DNA from: Kofleriaceae bacterium
GTDB lineage: Bacteria; Myxococcota_A; Polyangia; Haliangiales; Haliangiaceae
Length of the DNA: 61,125 nucleotides
Assembly: GCA_024762925.1 (NCBI GenBank)
Contig: JANTGM010000026.1
Coordinates: 1 to 61,125, forward strand
Direction: 5' to 3'
The translations under genes and the position numbers were made by a program. Every line of letters begins with the position of its first letter. Position 1 is the stretch's first letter. Shown in pieces: positions 4,092-53,949 of the stretch. The notes below the pieces were generated by a model that saw nothing but the letters and a program-made list of their open reading frames with translations, did no database searches and was not told where the DNA came from.

Positions 4092-4664
4092 CTAGAACGG
4101 ATCTTCGTTGTAGACCGAGTAGGTCCCATTTCCGCTCAACGTGCCATCTGCCTGTAGCGTTGGATGCAGGGCCCAGACAGAGTTGTCCAAGCCAAAGTGC
4201 TCCATGCTGCCATGACAAAGCCCATCTCCTGCGGTTGAGATCTTCAGATTGACCCGCTCATCATCCGGGTTATTGGCCCACAACACGTTGATCGTAGTTG
4301 TTTCATCATCATAGGTGATGTCATAGACGTGATCTGCAGGTAATTCGGGCTGCGTTGTACAGCCGAGGCGGTCCACCGTTGCAGTAACGGTCCAGGTTCC
4401 AACAGGCCAGCAGCCGTTGTGATCATCTGGAGGTAGCGCGCCTGGCGCATAGGTTCCGGTGACATTCAGGGTGCTTTCGCAAGCAATATCAAGAGCATCA
4501 AGGCGCTCATCGATGGCAGGGTCATCCGCTGGGATACGCAGTGGATTGTCACCGTCAGAACCACCATCATCCACACCATCCAATCCGCAGGCCCCAAGAC
4601 TCAGGAGCCCTAGCCCAACAACAACGGAAGAGAATGAACGGGATAAACGGTAAGCCAGGGTCAT
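4092..4664 (-). CDS. hypothetical lipoprotein
   Basis: This is a predicted 190-aa lipoprotein with a signal peptide ending LSLGAC (Cys26) and a short Asp/Gly-rich linker. The rest is a probable beta-rich extracytoplasmic domain with several cysteines (CEST, NGCW, LGC, GLCHG). The single CHG is not a CxxCH haem site. No family is recognised. The start at 4664 is chosen because it places the signal peptide at the N-terminus; longer in-frame readings to 4793 add an implausible leader. The gene converges tightly on the TonB-like gene. Confidence 0.7.
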   Translation of the reverse strand: MTLAYRLSRSFSSVVVGLGLLSLGACGLDGVDDGGSDGDNPLRIPADDPAIDERLDALDIACESTLNVTGTYAPGALPPDDHNGCWPVGTWTVTATVDRLGCTTQPELPADHVYDITYDDETTTINVLWANNPDDERVNLKISTAGDGLCHGSMEHFGLDNSVWALHPTLQADGTLSGNGTYSVYNEDPF

Positions 4665-4820
4665 TGCCACAAAGCATAGCACTGACTGTGCCGACACCAG
4701 GACCAGCCAACGCGACGAAATGCCACATTGATACGGCGGCTCACTGCCCCCAAGTGGTGACTCGTCCCCCATGTTGCCCCCCATGCCGCTCAAGCACTTG
4801 ACCCTTTATACTTGTTCCTA

Positions 4821-5852
4821 ATGCTGCCTCGCGTCGTACTCATTCTCCTCTGTGTTGTTGCTTGCGGCAAAGGCAAAGACAAAGAGCAAGCCACTGCAAA
4901 GACCAAAGACACACCTCCTAGCGTGCCCATCGATGCTGCTGTCACACCTGAGACCAAGTCGCACTCTGGTGGAATGGAGCGCTTCAAAGATCCGGGGGTC
5001 TACGTTGATGGCGTTCCGACTTCGGTTCTGCGCTTCGGAGAATTGCCCGTGACGCTCAAGCCTGTGTGGATCGAAGAACGCGCAGCGGTCGCCTTCAAGA
5101 AGGGCGACAATGGCCCGCGCTATCGCATCACCAAACAGCGACGCTATCGCTTCTCAGAGTATTTCCGAGAGCTTGGTGTGGACGTCGAGAAGATCAAGGA
5201 GCTGCACATCTATGGTGGCAATCAGAAGGCAGCGGCCGTGGTTATTTCAGGCAAGAACCTTCGAGAGTTTGATGATTTCCTCTTTCGCTTTGGCGGCGCG
5301 ATTTGGGGTAAGCCTCTTCCGTCATGTCCCGAAAAGGTTGGAGACGGAAAATGTCCAGATCAAATTGGGACGCTCGCTCTTTACGTAGACAAAGAGCCAC
5401 CAAAGCGCGAAGGCGGCCACTTCTACTTTGAGGGGAAACGCGTTGAGGGCATCCCCTATTTCGGCGAACCAATTCGCGGCGGAATTCGCGTGTACCTGGA
5501 CGGCACGCTGGCAGCCACCATCAAACGAAACAAACTCGTTGCGAGCAAAATCAAAGCAACAGGAACCCCTGGCAACGAAGAGTACAGCCTCTTTGAGTTC
5601 CTCACATCACAAGGCGTCGATACCGACAAGATTCAAGAAGCGTGGCTCATCGAGTACGAACGCCGAACCAAGAAGATCTCTCGAGACGATCTCCTGCAAC
5701 TGCGCTTCAAGGCCGGCGCAGGCGGTAGTGGAGAAGTACTCGTTGGCCCAGATGAAACGCCTGCACAGGCAATCTCCCTTCATAGCAAAACTCTTAGCCC
5801 AGAAGAGTTGCCTCAGCTACTTCCTGAAGAAATCGAGAAAGCCGATGGATAG
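4821..5852 (+). CDS. hypothetical lipoprotein
   Basis: This is a predicted 343-aa lipoprotein with a short signal peptide and lipobox ending VVAC (Cys15), then a Lys/Thr/Pro-rich linker. The mature part is a two-part domain in which a motif recurs: PGVYVDGVPTSVLRFGELP near the start and an EGKRVEGIPYFGEP/IRGGIRVYLDG block in the second half. This suggests an internal duplication of about 170 residues. ATG 4821 is preferred over the in-frame TTG at 4812. The 3' end overlaps the next gene by 8 bp (ATGGATAG), so the two are co-transcribed. Function unknown. Confidence 0.75.
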   Translation: MLPRVVLILLCVVACGKGKDKEQATAKTKDTPPSVPIDAAVTPETKSHSGGMERFKDPGVYVDGVPTSVLRFGELPVTLKPVWIEERAAVAFKKGDNGPRYRITKQRRYRFSEYFRELGVDVEKIKELHIYGGNQKAAAVVISGKNLREFDDFLFRFGGAIWGKPLPSCPEKVGDGKCPDQIGTLALYVDKEPPKREGGHFYFEGKRVEGIPYFGEPIRGGIRVYLDGTLAATIKRNKLVASKIKATGTPGNEEYSLFEFLTSQGVDTDKIQEAWLIEYERRTKKISRDDLLQLRFKAGAGGSGEVLVGPDETPAQAISLHSKTLSPEELPQLLPEEIEKADG

Positions 5853-6510
5853 ATTTGGAAACTCGGCGCTCGTCGCACTTCTCTTTGCAGCATGCGGTGG
5901 CACAACCGGCCCTCCTCCACCAAAGGCGGACGCAGGGCCTCGCTCTGATGCTGATGTAGGGCCTGTTGCCGATGCGATGCCCCAGAATGTGTGCACTGAC
6001 ATTGAAGCGATGTATGCGGATCTTGGCGAGGTCACTGGCATCGCCCTCATTGGCCCTGTGGATGAGGACATGCCCGACGGACCCAAGAGGCTCGTTGCGA
6101 CAATCCCCTTGAACGCCGATGCCGAGCCCGATGTTCTCTTTCTCGAGTTTTGGGAGACAGAAGAGCCGTTCCTCAGCCAAGGATTCGTCCCGCTATCTCA
6201 AACCCTCAATGGAGATCAGGCCGACCTCATCACCTGTGGTGCGTGTGCTTTCATCGCCGCAGACTACGAAGAAGGTGAGCCCATCGCTTTCAACATGGCC
6301 TACGGTGGTGAATTGGTCATAGATGGCATTGACGTCACTCCTGAAACGGGTTCTGTCACAGGCACGCTTGCTGACGTCAAGTTTCGCGCGGTCACCGTTG
6401 ATGAGGCAGGACAGGAAACTGTTGAAGACGGCTGTCGCTCCGAACTGGAAGCAGTACAGTTCAACTTCACGGTTGAGGCCGCTCCTGGCCCACAAGATCC
6501 GCCAATCTAG
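5845..6510 (+). CDS. hypothetical lipoprotein
   Basis: This is a predicted 221-aa lipoprotein with a lipobox at FAAC (Cys17) and a Pro then Asp/Ala-rich linker. The mature domain carries a CGAC motif near its centre and a late Cys, and looks like a small beta-rich extracytoplasmic domain. The ATG at 5845 lies inside the end of the upstream lipoprotein gene, so expression is probably coupled. The frame stays open far upstream (to 5428), but that region is the shadow of the upstream gene. No family is recognised. The gene converges with the SpoU methyltransferase gene 7 bp away. Confidence 0.75.
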   Translation: MDRFGNSALVALLFAACGGTTGPPPPKADAGPRSDADVGPVADAMPQNVCTDIEAMYADLGEVTGIALIGPVDEDMPDGPKRLVATIPLNADAEPDVLFLEFWETEEPFLSQGFVPLSQTLNGDQADLITCGACAFIAADYEEGEPIAFNMAYGGELVIDGIDVTPETGSVTGTLADVKFRAVTVDEAGQETVEDGCRSELEAVQFNFTVEAAPGPQDPPI

Positions 6511-6517
6511 CTCGCGT

Positions 6518-7120
6518 TCAACAAAGGGCGTAGGCGGCTATGCCCATGGCTGTGGCAACGTTTAGAGACGCTTTGCTGCCCCGCATGGGTATGTGAACAC
6601 AGCGTTCACAATGCCGAAGAATTCCGGGGTCAACGCCAGCGACTTCGTTGCCAAGCACCAGCACCAGCGAACCTTCCGGGCGCTTGGGAGCGGCAACAAA
6701 GAGATCTTCTGAGCCTTGGGTTCGCTCGAGGGCCCACAAGGTGTGCCCTCGGTCTGCAAGCTCCTCTGCCAGTTGTGCGCCGTTCTTGTGCGCGCTCCAA
6801 GAGATCCACGATTCGGCTCCAAGCGCTGTCTTTCGCATCGCCTTGTGATCGGGCGTTGGCGCAATGCCTGCTAGGTAGATATGCCCTGCCCCCACGCCAT
6901 CTGCGCTGCGGAAGATAGACCCCACGTTAAACACACTGCGCACATTGTCGAGCAAGAGCGATAGCGGCGCCGTGGAATTCGAAACATCTGCATCGGGCTC
7001 GGCACAGCGCTCCGAGGCCAGTTGCGTCTCGATCTTGCACAAGGGGCACGGCACGCCAACCTCGCCGGGAAAACGCAAGCTGCAAGCTGGGCAGACTACG
7101 AAGCGATATGCCTCGGGCAT
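6518..7120 (-). CDS. SpoU/TrmH-family RNA 2'-O-methyltransferase with zinc ribbon
   Basis: This is a 200-aa protein. Residues ~9-29 hold two CPxC knuckles (CPAC and CPLC), a small zinc ribbon. The rest is a SpoU methyltransferase domain with the family motifs in order: NVRSVFNVGSIFRSADG (motif 1), LVLGNEVAGVDPGIL (motif 2) and IPMRGSKASLNVATAMGIA (motif 3, trefoil-knot S-adenosylmethionine site). The family methylates the ribose 2'-OH of tRNA or rRNA in the cytoplasm; the exact target cannot be read from sequence. An N-terminal zinc ribbon is an addition to the usual minimal enzyme. The gene lies 12 bp after the MBL hydrolase at 7133-7966 and is probably the last gene of that operon. Confidence 0.9.
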   Translation of the reverse strand: MPEAYRFVVCPACSLRFPGEVGVPCPLCKIETQLASERCAEPDADVSNSTAPLSLLLDNVRSVFNVGSIFRSADGVGAGHIYLAGIAPTPDHKAMRKTALGAESWISWSAHKNGAQLAEELADRGHTLWALERTQGSEDLFVAAPKRPEGSLVLVLGNEVAGVDPGILRHCERCVHIPMRGSKASLNVATAMGIAAYALC

Positions 7121-47059: not shown

Positions 47060-47896
47060 TTGATCAAACTAGCCCCTCTTCATCGCTGTCTTGCACTTTC
47101 TTTTCTCCTAGCCGCCTGTGGTGGAGCTACAGGCACCGATGAGGACAACAGTGGTGCAGGTGCCGATGGTGGTGCTGGAGCCGAATGTGTCGCGACCGCA
47201 GACGATGAAGCGAGCTGCTCCGACGGTGTGGACAACAACTGCGATGGCAAGACCGACTGCGAGAACGTCGAGTGTGCCTTTGACTCCTACTGCACAGGGG
47301 GTGGTGGCGGCGGAAACACAGATGGATGTGGCGAAGCAACCTTTGGTGGCGCTCCCCTGGCAATTCCCGATGGTGTTGGCATGTCTTATGAGACCGCCGT
47401 TACAATCACGGGCTTCGATGATGGTCAGACACTTCTCGCAGCAGACGGATTTGTCTCAGCATGCGTCACAATGGAGCACTCTTGGCTTCGTGATCTCCAA
47501 ATCGAAATGATTTGCCCATCGGGCGAGTTGGTGGTCTTGCAGCAATTCCTCGGAACTGAGGGGGGCGAAGTCTACATGGGCATGCCAAACGACAGCGATG
47601 GCACCGACCCAACCCCAGGTGTTGGCGCTGAGTACTGCTGGAAAGCTGACGCTCCCAACGAGCCAATGCTCGAGTGGGCGAACAACAATCCACCGCCTCT
47701 CTTCGAAACCCTCACCCTGCCCGCAGGCGACTACCGACCAAACTCATCATTTAATGACCTTGTAGGTTGTACTCTCAATGGTGACTGGTCCATTCGCGCC
47801 ACCGACGACTGGGGCATCGACAACGGATACATCTTCGAGTGGCGTGTCACATTCAACGAGAACATCATTCCTGACTGCACCGATTGGATCGACTAG
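47060..47896 (+). CDS. lipoprotein with proprotein-convertase P-like domain
   Basis: This 278-aa lipoprotein has a lipobox ending LLAAC (Cys20), then a Cys/Asp-rich segment with the calcium-type DGVDNNCDGKTDCENVEC and a Gly tract. The C-terminal domain (~95-275) is a P/Homo B-like beta-sandwich: LRDLQIEMICPSGELVVL and DLVGCTLNGDWSIRATDDWGIDNG are characteristic. P domains flank secreted proteases, but no protease is seen here. Start is TTG at 47060 with AGGAG six bases upstream (47049-47053). The DxxDNxxDG motif is typical of myxobacterial surface proteins. Confidence 0.85.
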   Translation: MIKLAPLHRCLALSFLLAACGGATGTDEDNSGAGADGGAGAECVATADDEASCSDGVDNNCDGKTDCENVECAFDSYCTGGGGGGNTDGCGEATFGGAPLAIPDGVGMSYETAVTITGFDDGQTLLAADGFVSACVTMEHSWLRDLQIEMICPSGELVVLQQFLGTEGGEVYMGMPNDSDGTDPTPGVGAEYCWKADAPNEPMLEWANNNPPPLFETLTLPAGDYRPNSSFNDLVGCTLNGDWSIRATDDWGIDNGYIFEWRVTFNENIIPDCTDWID

Positions 47897-48138: not shown

Positions 48139-49869
48139 ATGAACCTCCTCCTCCGCCTACTCGCCCTTGCCGCCCTCCTAAATGCAACCGCTTGTAGCGG
48201 TGGATCAAATGGAGATGACAATGGAGGCCAAGCCAACGCTGACGCTAGCGTATCCGGTGATGGCGATGGCGATGGCGATGGTGACGGTGATGGCGATGGT
48301 GACGGTGATGGCGATGGCGATGGCGATGGCGATGGCGATGGTGACGGCGATGGCGATGGCGATGGCGATGGCGATGGCGATGGCGATGGCGATGGCGATA
48401 ACACCCTTGGCCTCCGCTCCGTCTACGGTGTCGTAAACGCCGACGATGATGACAACACGGGCAATCCCGATTGGTTCCAGCAACCGTTCGCAAGCGACAA
48501 CGACCTATCGAGCCTTCCACTGCCCAACCACCCAGGGCACACCATCGAGCTAACACTCAGCGGTGAGACCCAATACCTTCGCCTATGGAACGCAAGCAAT
48601 CAGATGTTGCTCGGCACCGACATCGACGATTCCGTCACAACCCAAGTTACTCTTCCTGCCGATGGCTCCACGCTTCGCGTTGAGTTTGGTTGGTACCTCG
48701 CAAAAGCATCGCTGAGCGCTCGACTTCTCGACAGCAGCGGAGCCGAAGTTGATACCGACCTCATCGACCTTTGGTCGTCACCGCTAATTCTCAACCACCA
48801 CTTGCAGCCTTCCGAGCACGTCTATGTGACGAACACGCCCAACGGTGGATCGAACAACACTGCCATGGTTGGAGCCTACCAATCGGTGCTCTCACCCAGC
48901 GCTTTCACCGCTGTCCCCGGAAACCAAGTCGGCTTTGATATCTGGATGCAGGACGAAATCGAGTTTGGCACAAGCACCGGTGATGACGGTCAGCGCATGG
49001 ATACCGTCATTGATTCCATTCGAGATCGCGGTCTTGATGTGATGCCCGAGGCGTACTTCAGCGGCCCCGAGTACTACGTCGGAACGTGGGGCAACGCTAC
49101 CCCGAATAGCTACGACTCCTTCGGCAACCTCGAAGTGTCACCGCCGGTCACGGTAAACGGTGTCGAGTACCCATTCGGCCGCGTGTACTATGGAGATGTT
49201 GGCAACCAGGGGCCAAATGGAACCGTTGGGCAGTTCCTTGAAGAACAAAAGATTCAAGATCCCTTCACGGTCAACACTTCTTGGCTATGCGTTGGGCACA
49301 TCGATGAGGTGACGAGCTGGATTCCCGATCCAAGTTCTGCACTTGGCTACAAGCTGCTCATCGCCGATGTCCCATCGGCCTTTGCTGCTCTCGACGGCAC
49401 CAACCAAAGCCTATCGAGCAGCCGATACGGAGCAAGTGGCTTCTTCAATACCAATGACTTCGAAACGGATATCGCGTTCCGCAACGAGAACATGGACATC
49501 CAGGACGATTACCTAACGCCCATGACCAACGCCTTCAAGGCTGCAACCGGAATCACCGACGCGGACATCATCAAGGTGCCGGCGCTCTTTGAAGATGTTG
49601 GTTGCGGTATGGCGGCGCTCATCCCAGGCACGGTCAACCTTATCGTCGCTGACGACGCCCAGGCCAACACCCACCTCTTCATCCCCAAGCCGTTTATCGA
49701 TTCGCTCGAGACCGTTTACGCGTCAATATTTCCCGCTGGCTCCAACATGCACTTTGTGGACGACTGGTTCAGCTACCACGCGCTCCTTGGCGAAGTTCAC
49801 TGCGGCACAAACGTCGAACGCACTCCGCTTGCCAACTGGTGGGAAGAGGCCATGCACCTGGTGCAGTAA
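48139..49869 (+). CDS. protein-arginine deiminase (PAD) homologue, lipoprotein
   Basis: This 576-aa lipoprotein has its lipobox at NATAC (Cys19), a linker of 24 Gly-Asp pairs (~40-87), a PAD middle-domain-like part ([17 protein letters not shown], Asp-rich as in calcium sites) and a C-terminal PAD catalytic domain. The match to animal PADs is clear: [47 protein letters not shown] and EVHCGTN. All four catalytic residues are present: Asp272, His387, Asp389 and Cys555 (PAD4: D350, H471, D473, C645), plus Trp269. PADs convert peptidyl arginine to citrulline, usually needing calcium. A surface-anchored bacterial version could act on host, prey or its own proteins; the target is unknown. No PAD_N-like domain is seen. 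Confidence 0.93.
48256..48399 (+). repeat. (GGN-GAY)24 hexanucleotide repeat encoding Gly-Asp
   Basis: Twenty-four in-frame GGN-GAT/GAC units lie inside the PAD homologue. Most are GGC-GAT, with GGT and GAC variants clustered around 48289-48306 and 48340-48351. The purity suggests slippage-prone DNA; any change in copy number keeps the frame. Confidence 0.95.
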
Positions 49870-49933: not shown

Positions 49934-50755
49934 ATGAGCCGCTTTCTAACCCTCGCACTCGCACTTCCCCTCATCCTTACCGCCTGCAATGACGCATCAA
50001 CCTCGGACACCGCATCTAAGACGGAGGCAGCCATCATTGCCCAAACGCAAACCGAGCAGGCCGCAACAGAATCGGCAAACACGCTAGCCAGCACAGACCT
50101 AGCAGAGCTCGTTCGCACAATCGAGCCACAGCTCGCTCGCAATGGCAGCCTTCGCTTCAGCGATGAGAAACTTGTGCAACCCGCCGCAGCACCACTCTTG
50201 CTTGCGCGTTTGCAGTCGGCAGGTGACGACGAAGCAACGCGTCACGCCCTCATCGTTGCGCTTCCACAGACCCAGGGAGACTACGCAGCCGAGGCCGTAT
50301 CCATGCTTCGAAACGAGCGCAGCGAAACGCTTCGGGCCGCCCTGGTTGACTCCCTTCGCCTGGCTAAGGACGGCAAGGCTGCTCTTGAAGGCCTAGCGCT
50401 TGGCATGAGCGACGCTGCCGCCTCGGTTCGCATTCGTGCAGCCTTTGCGATTGGCCGGCGTGCTGATGGTCTCGACCTGAGTGATGCACTCGTAGCGGCG
50501 CTCTCTGATAGCAATTCTGAGCTGCAAGCTACTGCAGCACGGGCTCTGGGCAACCTCGGAGCATCGAAAGCCTTCGACAACCTTGCTTCCCTCACTCAGA
50601 GTCGTGACGCTGATGTTCGCCTCGAGTCGCTTCGCGCCTTGGCCCGAGTGGATGCAGACCGCGCAGCTGTCCTGCCCGGCCTCTCGAAGTTCACGCAAGA
50701 TAGCGACGAGCGCATCCGCACCGCCGCTACCAAAGTTGCCAACAAAGCCTACTAA
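49934..50755 (+). CDS. lipoprotein with HEAT-like repeats
   Basis: This 273-aa lipoprotein has a lipobox ending ILTAC (Cys18), then a Ser/Thr/Ala-rich stretch and about five HEAT-type helical repeats (~70-270), for example VRIRAAFAIGRRA, LQATAARALGNLG, VRLESLRALARV and IRTAATKVANKA. HEAT repeats act as protein-binding scaffolds. GGAG 6 nt upstream supports ATG 49934. It follows the PAD homologue by 64 bp and may share its transcript. No specific partner can be named. Confidence 0.85.
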   Translation: MSRFLTLALALPLILTACNDASTSDTASKTEAAIIAQTQTEQAATESANTLASTDLAELVRTIEPQLARNGSLRFSDEKLVQPAAAPLLLARLQSAGDDEATRHALIVALPQTQGDYAAEAVSMLRNERSETLRAALVDSLRLAKDGKAALEGLALGMSDAAASVRIRAAFAIGRRADGLDLSDALVAALSDSNSELQATAARALGNLGASKAFDNLASLTQSRDADVRLESLRALARVDADRAAVLPGLSKFTQDSDERIRTAATKVANKAY

Positions 50756-51514: not shown

Positions 51515-52228
51515 TTAGTCGGCGGTGAAGCCCTCGGCGAGTTCATCCGCATTTGGGCGGATCGTCACATACACAAGATAGCCGAGTGTAACCAGCATGA
51601 GGACCGCACCAACCCAACGCACGTTGTCGGCGATGTCGCGGGCCTGTTGCATTTTATCCCACTTCGTAAAGAGGTAGACCCAATCGTGAGTGTCACCGCC
51701 AACGAGCGGCAGCTCCTCGACCGGCGCGTCATGCATGTAGCGGGCAATGTTGATGAGATTCTCGCCAAACCACCAAGCGCATGTGACCGCTGCAAAGCGC
51801 TGCTGCTTCTTGAACCAAAAGTAGAGCCCAAGCCCAAATGGCCACATCAGTTGTCCAAGCGTGCCGCCAAGAAAGTGAAGCGTTTCGCCACCAAAAGAGA
51901 AGATGTAGTGGCCCGCTTCGTGGAAGACCAAGTTCACACCATCAATAAAAACCCACTCCGACGATAGCCAGAGGTGGGATGCTGTGAACCAGGCCAACAA
52001 CACCAACACCGGAATGCGGGTAAGCGTCCAATACAGCCTGCGCGTCGATTCTTCCTTCTCAGCATAACTCTGAGGCTCTCGAATACCAGAGATGTCCTTC
52101 GCCTTCTTTATGAAGTCCGCATGCTGATTCACGGTTGCACGGCGCTCCTGGAGTTCGAATCCATCGGAGAGTTCGAGGGATACTTCTGCATCGGGAGCAG
52201 GGGCGAACGGATCGTCTGGCGTACTCAT
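51515..52228 (-). CDS. multi-pass membrane protein with HEAGH metal motif
   Basis: This 237-aa protein has a soluble N-terminus (~1-65) and several membrane helices (~70-90, 95-115, 120-140, 205-225). One helix carries HEAGH (His103-Glu104-His107), the HExxH zinc-binding motif, in VFHEAGHYIFSFGG. This resembles membrane metallopeptidases of the M50/site-2-protease type, where HExxH lies in a membrane helix, but a third zinc ligand such as NPDG is not clear, so peptidase activity is a hypothesis. Its start overlaps the stop of the eight-haem cytochrome gene (ATGA), so it is co-translated with it. Confidence 0.7.
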   Translation of the reverse strand: MSTPDDPFAPAPDAEVSLELSDGFELQERRATVNQHADFIKKAKDISGIREPQSYAEKEESTRRLYWTLTRIPVLVLLAWFTASHLWLSSEWVFIDGVNLVFHEAGHYIFSFGGETLHFLGGTLGQLMWPFGLGLYFWFKKQQRFAAVTCAWWFGENLINIARYMHDAPVEELPLVGGDTHDWVYLFTKWDKMQQARDIADNVRWVGAVLMLVTLGYLVYVTIRPNADELAEGFTAD

Positions 52229-53949
52229 TGCGGTGTTTCTCTCAGCTCTTTCCCCTTGCGACGCAGCGCCTTGGCTTGAGCGCTACGGACCTGTGGCGCG
52301 GCAGTTAGATCGTACTCGTCTTTTCGCAACTCGCGACCCAGTATTTCTTCGACGGCCCAAAGAAATCGCAAGCGGTCGTAGGCAACTGGAGCATCGAGTA
52401 TCGAGAGGAGGTCATCTAGGAAGTTTGCTCCATCCTTGCTGTACCCGATGGCCGAGGCCGCCGTTAGCCTGAGTATGCGCTCATCGCTCATGAGCCAGAT
52501 GTGTGCTGCGGACTCGGCTTGCTCAAGTGTAGGAAGATTGGGCAGCGACACGCCATACTGTCCTCGCAGCTGCTCTACCGTCCAGGCGAGGCTCTTTTCG
52601 AGGTGGCAGAGATTGCACGCGTTGAGGCTGGTGGCCAGCATCTCTTCATCCGCGGGTGAGCTGATGCGATGGCTGCGAATGAGCTCGTCAACGCCCTGCA
52701 CGATACGTGGCATATGGCAGTCAAGACACGTGACTGTGGGCTCGTGAAGGCTGTGACTGAGAGCGAGAACAGGATCTGCCAAGTTTTGATGGCAACCTAA
52801 GCAAGCGCCAATGTGGTTGGCTTGATCCTCTGCGAGTGCACCAGGCCCGGGAATATGAGGATCGTGGCAATCGGTGCACTTGATCTTTGTTGCGCATGCG
52901 CCGCTAAGCAAATCGAGCGCTTCGCTCGAGTTTCGCGTTCCAGCGCCATTGGGATAGAGCGCGGTCGGTGTGCTGTGGCATTGGGCGCAAATCGCATTGA
53001 TGGTTCGAGGGTCCCTGCGATCGCCAGCAACCGCTATTGACTGAGAGTTTTTCGTAACCCCCTCACCTGCGGGCTCAAAGCGTATCGGCTTGCCTAGTAT
53101 CGCGTGTTCCCTGCCGCCAAAGTGGCAGGACTCACAGCTAATGCCCACGCTCACTAAGTCCTCAACGGGCAGGAGATTGTCTGGTGATGCTGGCGCTACA
53201 ACCGAGTCGTTGTAGAGAAGCTCAATCCCGCTGCCGATTTGCTGTGCTCCTTGAAGGCGAGCCAAGCGCTTGTCGAAGGAATAGGTGTTGTGGCACCAAG
53301 CACAGCGTCCTCGCCAGGGCGCTTGCTCTGGGTCAAAGACGCTGGTGGCAATCGTTCCGCCCTCGTCGTATTCCGCTCCATGCCAAGAATCGAAGTACTG
53401 TTGGTGCAGCCAGCGTTCTTGGCTAAGAAGAAATCCGAAGGGCAAACGAATCTCACGGGAGTAAATCTCGTGGCCCTTCGGTTCTGGTCCAAGCTCTTGC
53501 ACACCTACGTACTCCTGCATGTAGCGTGAGCCTATGGTGCGAGTAATCCGATATCGCCGATAGACGTGGCCCTCACGGACAAAGCTCATCGCGTACTCAT
53601 TGCCGCGTCGGGCAAACAGTACCTCGCCGCCTGCATAGCTCTCCCGATGTTGCTCAAAATCGCCAAGCACAGCGCCGGGTTCGGTGACCAACCGATTCAT
53701 GCGACGGTGAAGATTGCCCTCCCACTGCTTGAAGCGCTCGTCATGGCACTCACCGCAAACCTGCGGCCCTACATAGTCCTCCTTGCGAACATTGCTGTAG
53801 GTCGCACCCAACTCAGCGGCCTGGGCTTCCAGGCCGGCGTGCGCGCTTGGCTCCACGCCCTGACGCTGCCACCAGAGCGCAGCGAGAGCGATTGCGATGA
53901 GCAGCATCGCACCCCCCACAAGTCGACTCGTGCTGCCCATGGCTCTCAT
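52225..53949 (-). CDS. membrane-anchored octahaem cytochrome c
   Basis: This 574-aa protein has one N-terminal membrane anchor (~9-27) and a periplasmic part with eight CxxCH sites in order: CGECH, CAWCH, CESCH, CAQCH, CTDCH, CLGCH, CLDCH and CNLCH. The last ~110 residues are helical (EQAESAAHIWLMSDERILRL) and may form a HEAT/TPR-like tail. The family resembles the broad cytochrome c554/multihaem group; no catalytic site of NrfA or hydroxylamine oxidoreductase is recognised. It is coupled to the HEAGH membrane protein. Start Met1 or Met4. Divergent from the gene at 54014 with 64 bp between. Confidence 0.9.
   Translation of the reverse strand: MRAMGSTSRLVGGAMLLIAIALAALWWQRQGVEPSAHAGLEAQAAELGATYSNVRKEDYVGPQVCGECHDERFKQWEGNLHRRMNRLVTEPGAVLGDFEQHRESYAGGEVLFARRGNEYAMSFVREGHVYRRYRITRTIGSRYMQEYVGVQELGPEPKGHEIYSREIRLPFGFLLSQERWLHQQYFDSWHGAEYDEGGTIATSVFDPEQAPWRGRCAWCHNTYSFDKRLARLQGAQQIGSGIELLYNDSVVAPASPDNLLPVEDLVSVGISCESCHFGGREHAILGKPIRFEPAGEGVTKNSQSIAVAGDRRDPRTINAICAQCHSTPTALYPNGAGTRNSSEALDLLSGACATKIKCTDCHDPHIPGPGALAEDQANHIGACLGCHQNLADPVLALSHSLHEPTVTCLDCHMPRIVQGVDELIRSHRISSPADEEMLATSLNACNLCHLEKSLAWTVEQLRGQYGVSLPNLPTLEQAESAAHIWLMSDERILRLTAASAIGYSKDGANFLDDLLSILDAPVAYDRLRFLWAVEEILGRELRKDEYDLTAAPQVRSAQAKALRRKGKELRETPQ

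Follow-up and report, generated by a model that had tools for sequence, protein, structure and literature searches.

A probable lipoprotein of the peptidylarginine deiminase family and its conserved HEAT-repeat partner gene in Myxococcota

Citrullination of proteins is considered rare in bacteria, and animals are believed to have acquired it from cyanobacteria. One exported bacterial enzyme that citrullinates proteins is PPAD of Porphyromonas gingivalis, which is generally reported to be calcium-independent. PPAD is an extended agmatine deiminase (PMC8826395), and its similarity to the protein described here is functional only. Peptidylarginine deiminases (PADs or PADIs) occur in less than 1% of bacterial species and in 0.43% of the proteobacterial species with UniProt proteomes (PMC8826395). 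The three-domain PADI of Cyanothece 8801 is active and calcium-dependent, and clade Ai, which comprises animals and late cyanobacteria, was stated to be the only one with calcium sites 2 and 4 and with the switch Asp, which is Asp389 in PADI2 and Asp388 in PAD4 (PMC8826395). A search of the available literature returned nothing relevant on PADs in myxobacteria or on a PAD-HEAT operon.

In the present study, we analysed a gene of a Kofleriaceae bacterium (Myxococcota). The window, that is, the whole stretch of 61,125 nucleotides that was analysed, is one contig of a 6.8-Mb genome that is 98% complete. The initial annotation had described the gene product as a surface lipoprotein related to animal PADs, and had passed over the conserved HEAT-repeat partner gene directly downstream. 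The features are given below with the evidence for each.

48139-49869, + strand: gene of the 576-aa PAD-family protein (signal peptide, Cys19, (GD)24 linker, divergent PAD_M, PAD_C), ATG start at 48139; Pfam, solved-structure and profile matches
48139-48192, + strand: signal peptide of 18 residues, followed by the presumed lipidated Cys19 (codon 48193-48195); sequence and homologues
48256-48399, + strand: (GD)24 linker in mixed codons, residues 40-87; sequence
48436-48504, + strand: N-terminal calcium loop of the divergent PAD_M, 23 residues (100-122), with equivalents of PAD4 N153, D155, D157, D165, D176 (Asn here) and D179 (Ca3/Ca4)
48754-49845, + strand: PAD_C catalytic domain, residues 206-569 (PF03068 positions 4-395 of 395); Pfam
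48952-48954, + strand: catalytic Asp272 (PAD4 Asp350) in WMQDEIEF; alignment
49297-49305, + strand: catalytic His387 and Asp389 (PAD4 His471 and Asp473); alignment
49801-49803, + strand: catalytic Cys555 (PAD4 Cys645); alignment
49934-50755, + strand: partner gene for a 273-aa exported HEAT-repeat lipoprotein with lipobox LTAC and an invariant Arg69 before the solenoid; Pfam, neighbourhood and alignment evidence

Judged by its domain and catalytic residues, the protein is a member of the PAD family. The match to PF03068 (8.3e-65, 219.7 bits) extends over the whole 395-position model and lies far above both chance and the curated cut-off of 25 bits, and searches of solved structures returned PADs only (human PAD1 at 3.7e-49, PAD4 at 8e-45). 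It is not an agmatine or free-arginine deiminase, a distinction already drawn in the initial annotation. The numbering given there for the four catalytic residues is also correct, and both blocks said to be identical to animal PADs, one of 13 residues and EVHCGTN, do occur in the protein and agree with human PAD4. When 30 homologues were combined into a profile, it matched PAD4 at 8e-86 over PAD_M and PAD_C, from about PAD4 Asn153; thus, a divergent PAD_M is present, though uncalled by Pfam. The cupredoxin-like PAD_N domain had no Pfam match in the protein, and only the signal peptide and linker precede PAD_M. The AlphaFold2 model of the PAD computed from one sequence had a pLDDT of 35, too low for use.

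The PAD is probably exported and probably a lipoprotein, as suggested by its own N-terminus and by homologues with clear lipoboxes. The anchoring proposed initially is therefore upheld as probable, with the reservation that the lipobox at the end of the first 19 residues, NATA|C, is imperfect, Asn at -4 being non-canonical. Lipoboxes or signal peptides were found in most PAD homologues, and some of the lipoboxes are clear. The cell-surface location claimed initially narrows to probable export. The (GD)24 stalk is exactly as had been described, but it is one version of a variable element. In the homologues the linker from Cys to PAD_M is of low complexity and of many kinds, so that the GD composition itself is not conserved; arrays of at least six GD pairs occur at one further site only in the genome. 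A TrAA12-like Pfam match (1.9e-8, residues 32-98) is in all likelihood an artefact, caused by the low complexity of the GD run. Composition gave no sign of horizontal acquisition, as the GC content of the PAD gene without the stalk (56.2%) equals that of the window (56.3%).

PADs had been described in the initial annotation as best known from vertebrates and some cyanobacteria; this is too narrow, since fungal, actinobacterial and proteobacterial PADs have been published as well (PMC8826395), and 72 of 284 Myxococcota genomes have PF03068 above the cut-off, in most cases on probable lipoproteins. None of 14 control genomes has it. With PADs in a quarter of the sampled Myxococcota genomes, the host is not exceptional. 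Most PAD-bearing genomes have one or two copies, and within the family of the host the distribution is patchy (6/30 genomes, including two of the same genus). The nearest PAD is that of the same-genus genome G284, the sole relative recovered when contigs were scanned with the window protein. No PAD was found in viral contigs and phages, and thus there is no phage link. A tblastn search of plasmids with human PAD4 found PADs in Streptomyces and Embleya only. On the plasmid of Streptomyces sp. NBC_00984 (L041, 2320-6388), the PAD gene is directly followed by genes for a histidine kinase and a response regulator.

Calcium dependence had also been proposed for the window protein, and it is likely from the residues, though in an altered form: the ligands of sites 1-4 are mostly kept, while site 5 is partly lost, the segment of site 6 is missing and Glu replaces Asp at the switch. 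Allotting PAD4 positions to calcium sites according to what is established for PAD4, we found that the protein keeps Q349, E351, E353, D369, S370, F407, L410, E411, N153, D155, D157, D165 and D179. The changes are D176 to Asn, N373 to Asp, D388 (the switch position) to Glu, and loss of D168/E170 (Ca5). In addition to the catalytic Asp, WMQDEIEF holds the Ca1 ligands Gln271 and Glu275 and the Ca2 ligand Glu273.

We classified 82 Myxococcota PADs and three Streptomyces plasmid PADs by tree and residues into three groups. Group I (33 rows, including the window protein) shares E351, D369, S370 and R372, numbered as in PAD4, with human PADs. In group II (30 rows), where the Streptomyces PADs fall, position 351 is mostly aromatic, 369 is Arg and 372 is mostly Asn. 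Group III (18 rows) has Q353, lacks the Ca2 ligands and carries SHGNHD in place of SFGNLE. Among the three groups, the Ca2 ligands and Arg372 are common to animal PADs and group I only. The catalytic Asp, His and Asp are present in 33/33 rows of group I and the Cys in 32/32 readable rows. The Ca1 and Ca2 ligands are conserved in group I (Glu351, Asp369 and Ser370 in 30-33 of 33 rows and in the window protein), those of Ca3/4 (N153, D155, D157, D165, D179) nearly so, and the peptide-contacting Arg374 is found in 22 of 33, the window protein included. Residue 388 varies (Asp in 18, Gly in 9, Glu in 3, the window protein among these, and others in 3), and Asp at this switch position was found in 25 of 30 rows of group II. 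Groups II and III have an extra DxNRDGxVDxxDP segment ahead of PAD_M, which corresponds to the Ca6 segment of human PADs and is missing from group I. As group I also lacks PAD_N, has an incomplete Ca5 and is variable at 388, its calcium control may differ. In the group III PADs (18 rows; L058, L067, L092 and other loci), the Ca1 ligands F407, L410 and E411 are replaced by His, His and Asp together with Gln353, and SHGNHD looks like a different site, perhaps for a transition metal. One further row, L101 (G231:C103:26000-30164), has lost the catalytic Asp350, Asp473 and the Cys region and is a probable pseudo-enzyme.

In a tree of the catalytic domain (LG+C20, 84 rows, human PADs included, cyanobacterial sequences not included), group I formed one clade (100/100) with the human PADs as its sister (100/99), both on long stems (0.8 and 1.0). 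This grouping stayed when the active-site and Ca2 columns were removed (SH-aLRT 99), although an alternative tree with the human PADs beside three group II sequences was not rejected (AU p 0.097). By residues and tree, the group I branch appears unusually like animal PADs. The window protein shares with animal PADI1-4 the PAD_C domain with about 33% identity over it, the catalytic residues, the Ca1 and Ca2 ligands, most of the Ca3/4 ligands and Arg372/Arg374. It differs from them in the absence of PAD_N and of the Ca6 segment, in the incomplete Ca5 and in its M-C linker, which reads NHH and departs from the human sequence; moreover, animal PADI1-4 are intracellular, whereas the window protein is a probable exported lipoprotein with a HEAT partner gene. 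The cyanobacterial three-domain PADI resembles it in being bacterial, in having PAD_M and PAD_C, and in the Ca2-type ligands reported for its clade (PMC8826395), but has a degenerate PAD_N where the window protein has none. The two-domain PADIs of fungi and actinobacteria (clade B) likewise consist of PAD_M-PAD_C only, and NHH partially resembles the triple-His M-C linker reported for them; however, clade B is reported to lack the Ca2 and Ca4 ligands (PMC8826395), whereas the window protein keeps those of Ca2. Neither the full triple-His linker nor the loss of Ca2 ligands was thus found in it. The Streptomyces PADs, which fall with Myxococcota group II, differ further in having no HEAT partner. 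The window PAD shares the Ca2 site with clade Ai but has neither PAD_N nor the switch Asp, and does not belong to that clade as it was published. The published exclusivity of site 2 to clade Ai does not fit the alignment of group I, and Asp at the switch position, likewise called exclusive, is kept in the 18 of 33 and 25 of 30 rows of groups I and II counted above.

The partner gene begins 64 nt past the PAD stop codon. Of 76 Myxococcota PAD loci with at least 700 bp downstream, 69 have a homologous partner 3' of the PAD and in the same orientation (group I 29/31, group II 23/28, group III 17/17). Overlaps of about 4 or 22 nt between the two genes are common, the exact starts being uncertain. 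The two group I exceptions are L089 (G092:C110:20700-26900), with tandem group I PADs and one HEAT partner behind the second, and L042 (G300:C61:3400-14500, - strand, about 4600-6860), which belongs to the same family as the window and is a PAD-HEAT fusion with a truncated HEAT partner: a single frame of 750 aa is PAD to about residue 622 and HEAT sequence thereafter. In L008 the HEAT gene is upstream of the PAD. Pfam HEAT_2 was found in 27/27 and 26/28 of the partners scanned, and the partners of group I and groups II/III are distant as profiles (hhalign probability 88%). Beside the sampled Streptomyces PADs no HEAT partner was found; thus, PADs do not generally need one. The gene just 5' of the PAD (47060-47896, + strand) codes for a lipoprotein that combines a proprotein-convertase P-domain with a weak MopE-like motif, and had no match beside other PADs. 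On the 3' side of the pair (52225-53949, - strand) lies a gene for a multihaem cytochrome c-type protein (Cytochrome_C7, paired CXXCH).

A two-sequence AlphaFold2 model of the partner is an alpha-solenoid from about residue 85 (pLDDT 80.6), and among solved structures it comes closest to designed HEAT/alphaRep binders. The sole invariant column in 27 group I partners is Arg69, which lies in a loop of low confidence ahead of the solenoid. The 28 partners of groups II/III likewise have a single invariant column, an Arg (Arg83 in the first row) in a similar pre-solenoid place, the alignment between the two being only approximate. For a protein paired with an arginine deiminase, an invariant Arg hints at a presented arginine.

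The PAD-HEAT pairing suggests an undescribed two-protein citrullination module. A reading that we hold to be somewhat more probable than its negation is that an active PAD, exported and lipid-anchored through the flexible, acidic (GD)24 tether, would be kept loaded by the calcium outside the cytoplasm and would turn arginine side chains of exported or external proteins into citrulline. Within this reading we infer that the PAD would be the enzymatic half of the module, positioned at the cell surface, and that the downstream HEAT lipoprotein would bind it as a dedicated adaptor, substrate or regulator. Arg69 would be the foremost candidate for presentation to the active site.

One alternative is that the PAD is exported and acts alone, deiminating arginine in peptides from the environment as a source of nutrients or ammonia, and that the HEAT protein is a periplasmic chaperone or stabiliser of a generic kind that plays no specific part in citrullination. 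The patchiness within the family fits such an accessory metabolic trait, and the genome has many HEAT stretches (32 matches). However, the only full-length match to the partner family in this genome is the one beside the PAD (262 bits), the next (60 bits) covering repeats only, and four of 56 related genomes have full-length matches, in each case beside the group I PAD that they carry; one of the remaining two carriers has the fusion, and in the other the contig stops within the PAD. As the carrier genomes are related to each other, these co-occurrences are not independent events. The existence of the fusion also argues against a generic chaperone. Furthermore, no third gene widely common to PAD-HEAT loci was found, for example for citrulline catabolism; other clusters were shadow ORFs of the pair or sets of at most three loci. 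We consider the nutritional role unlikely.

A toxin-immunity pair, in which the PAD lipoprotein is passed to neighbouring cells by outer-membrane exchange or contact and harms them by citrullination while the HEAT protein confers immunity, seems less probable still. The small, often overlapping gene directly behind the enzyme fits such a pair, HEAT immunity proteins are known (Imm-HEAT, PMC3482391), as is outer-membrane exchange of lipoproteins in myxobacteria (PMC3325183), and the partner diverges faster than the enzyme (43% against 62% identity to the same-genus relative). Yet the catalytic domain is conserved phylum-wide, neither swapped toxin domains nor a delivery domain were seen, most PAD genomes hold only the one or two copies noted above, and the available text of the polymorphic toxin survey (PMC3482391) does not mention a deiminase. 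Finally, an inactive or re-purposed PAD fold serving as a binding protein or metal-regulated scaffold is very improbable in view of the invariant Asp350, His471, Asp473 and Cys645 of group I, despite the catalytic losses in L101 and the altered switch residue and Ca5/Ca6.

Returning to the citrullination module, we regard as evenly balanced the broader reading that Myxococcota hold an undescribed extracytoplasmic system in which a lipoprotein PAD acts with a HEAT partner that presents, receives or blocks citrullination, and that group I is a third PAD lineage, without PAD_N and with the Ca2 site as in animals. As part of this reading, the presence of the animal Ca2 site in group I would mean that the site arose before or outside the animal-cyanobacterial clade. 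The PAD family itself is already known; the proposed PAD-HEAT module and third PAD lineage are the new parts. The occurrence of probable exported PADs in a quarter of the sampled Myxococcota, one lineage of them with calcium-site residues called exclusive to animals and late cyanobacteria, bears directly on the history of citrullination. The PAD-HEAT pairing is a concrete lead to a dedicated partner, perhaps a natural substrate, of a bacterial PAD.
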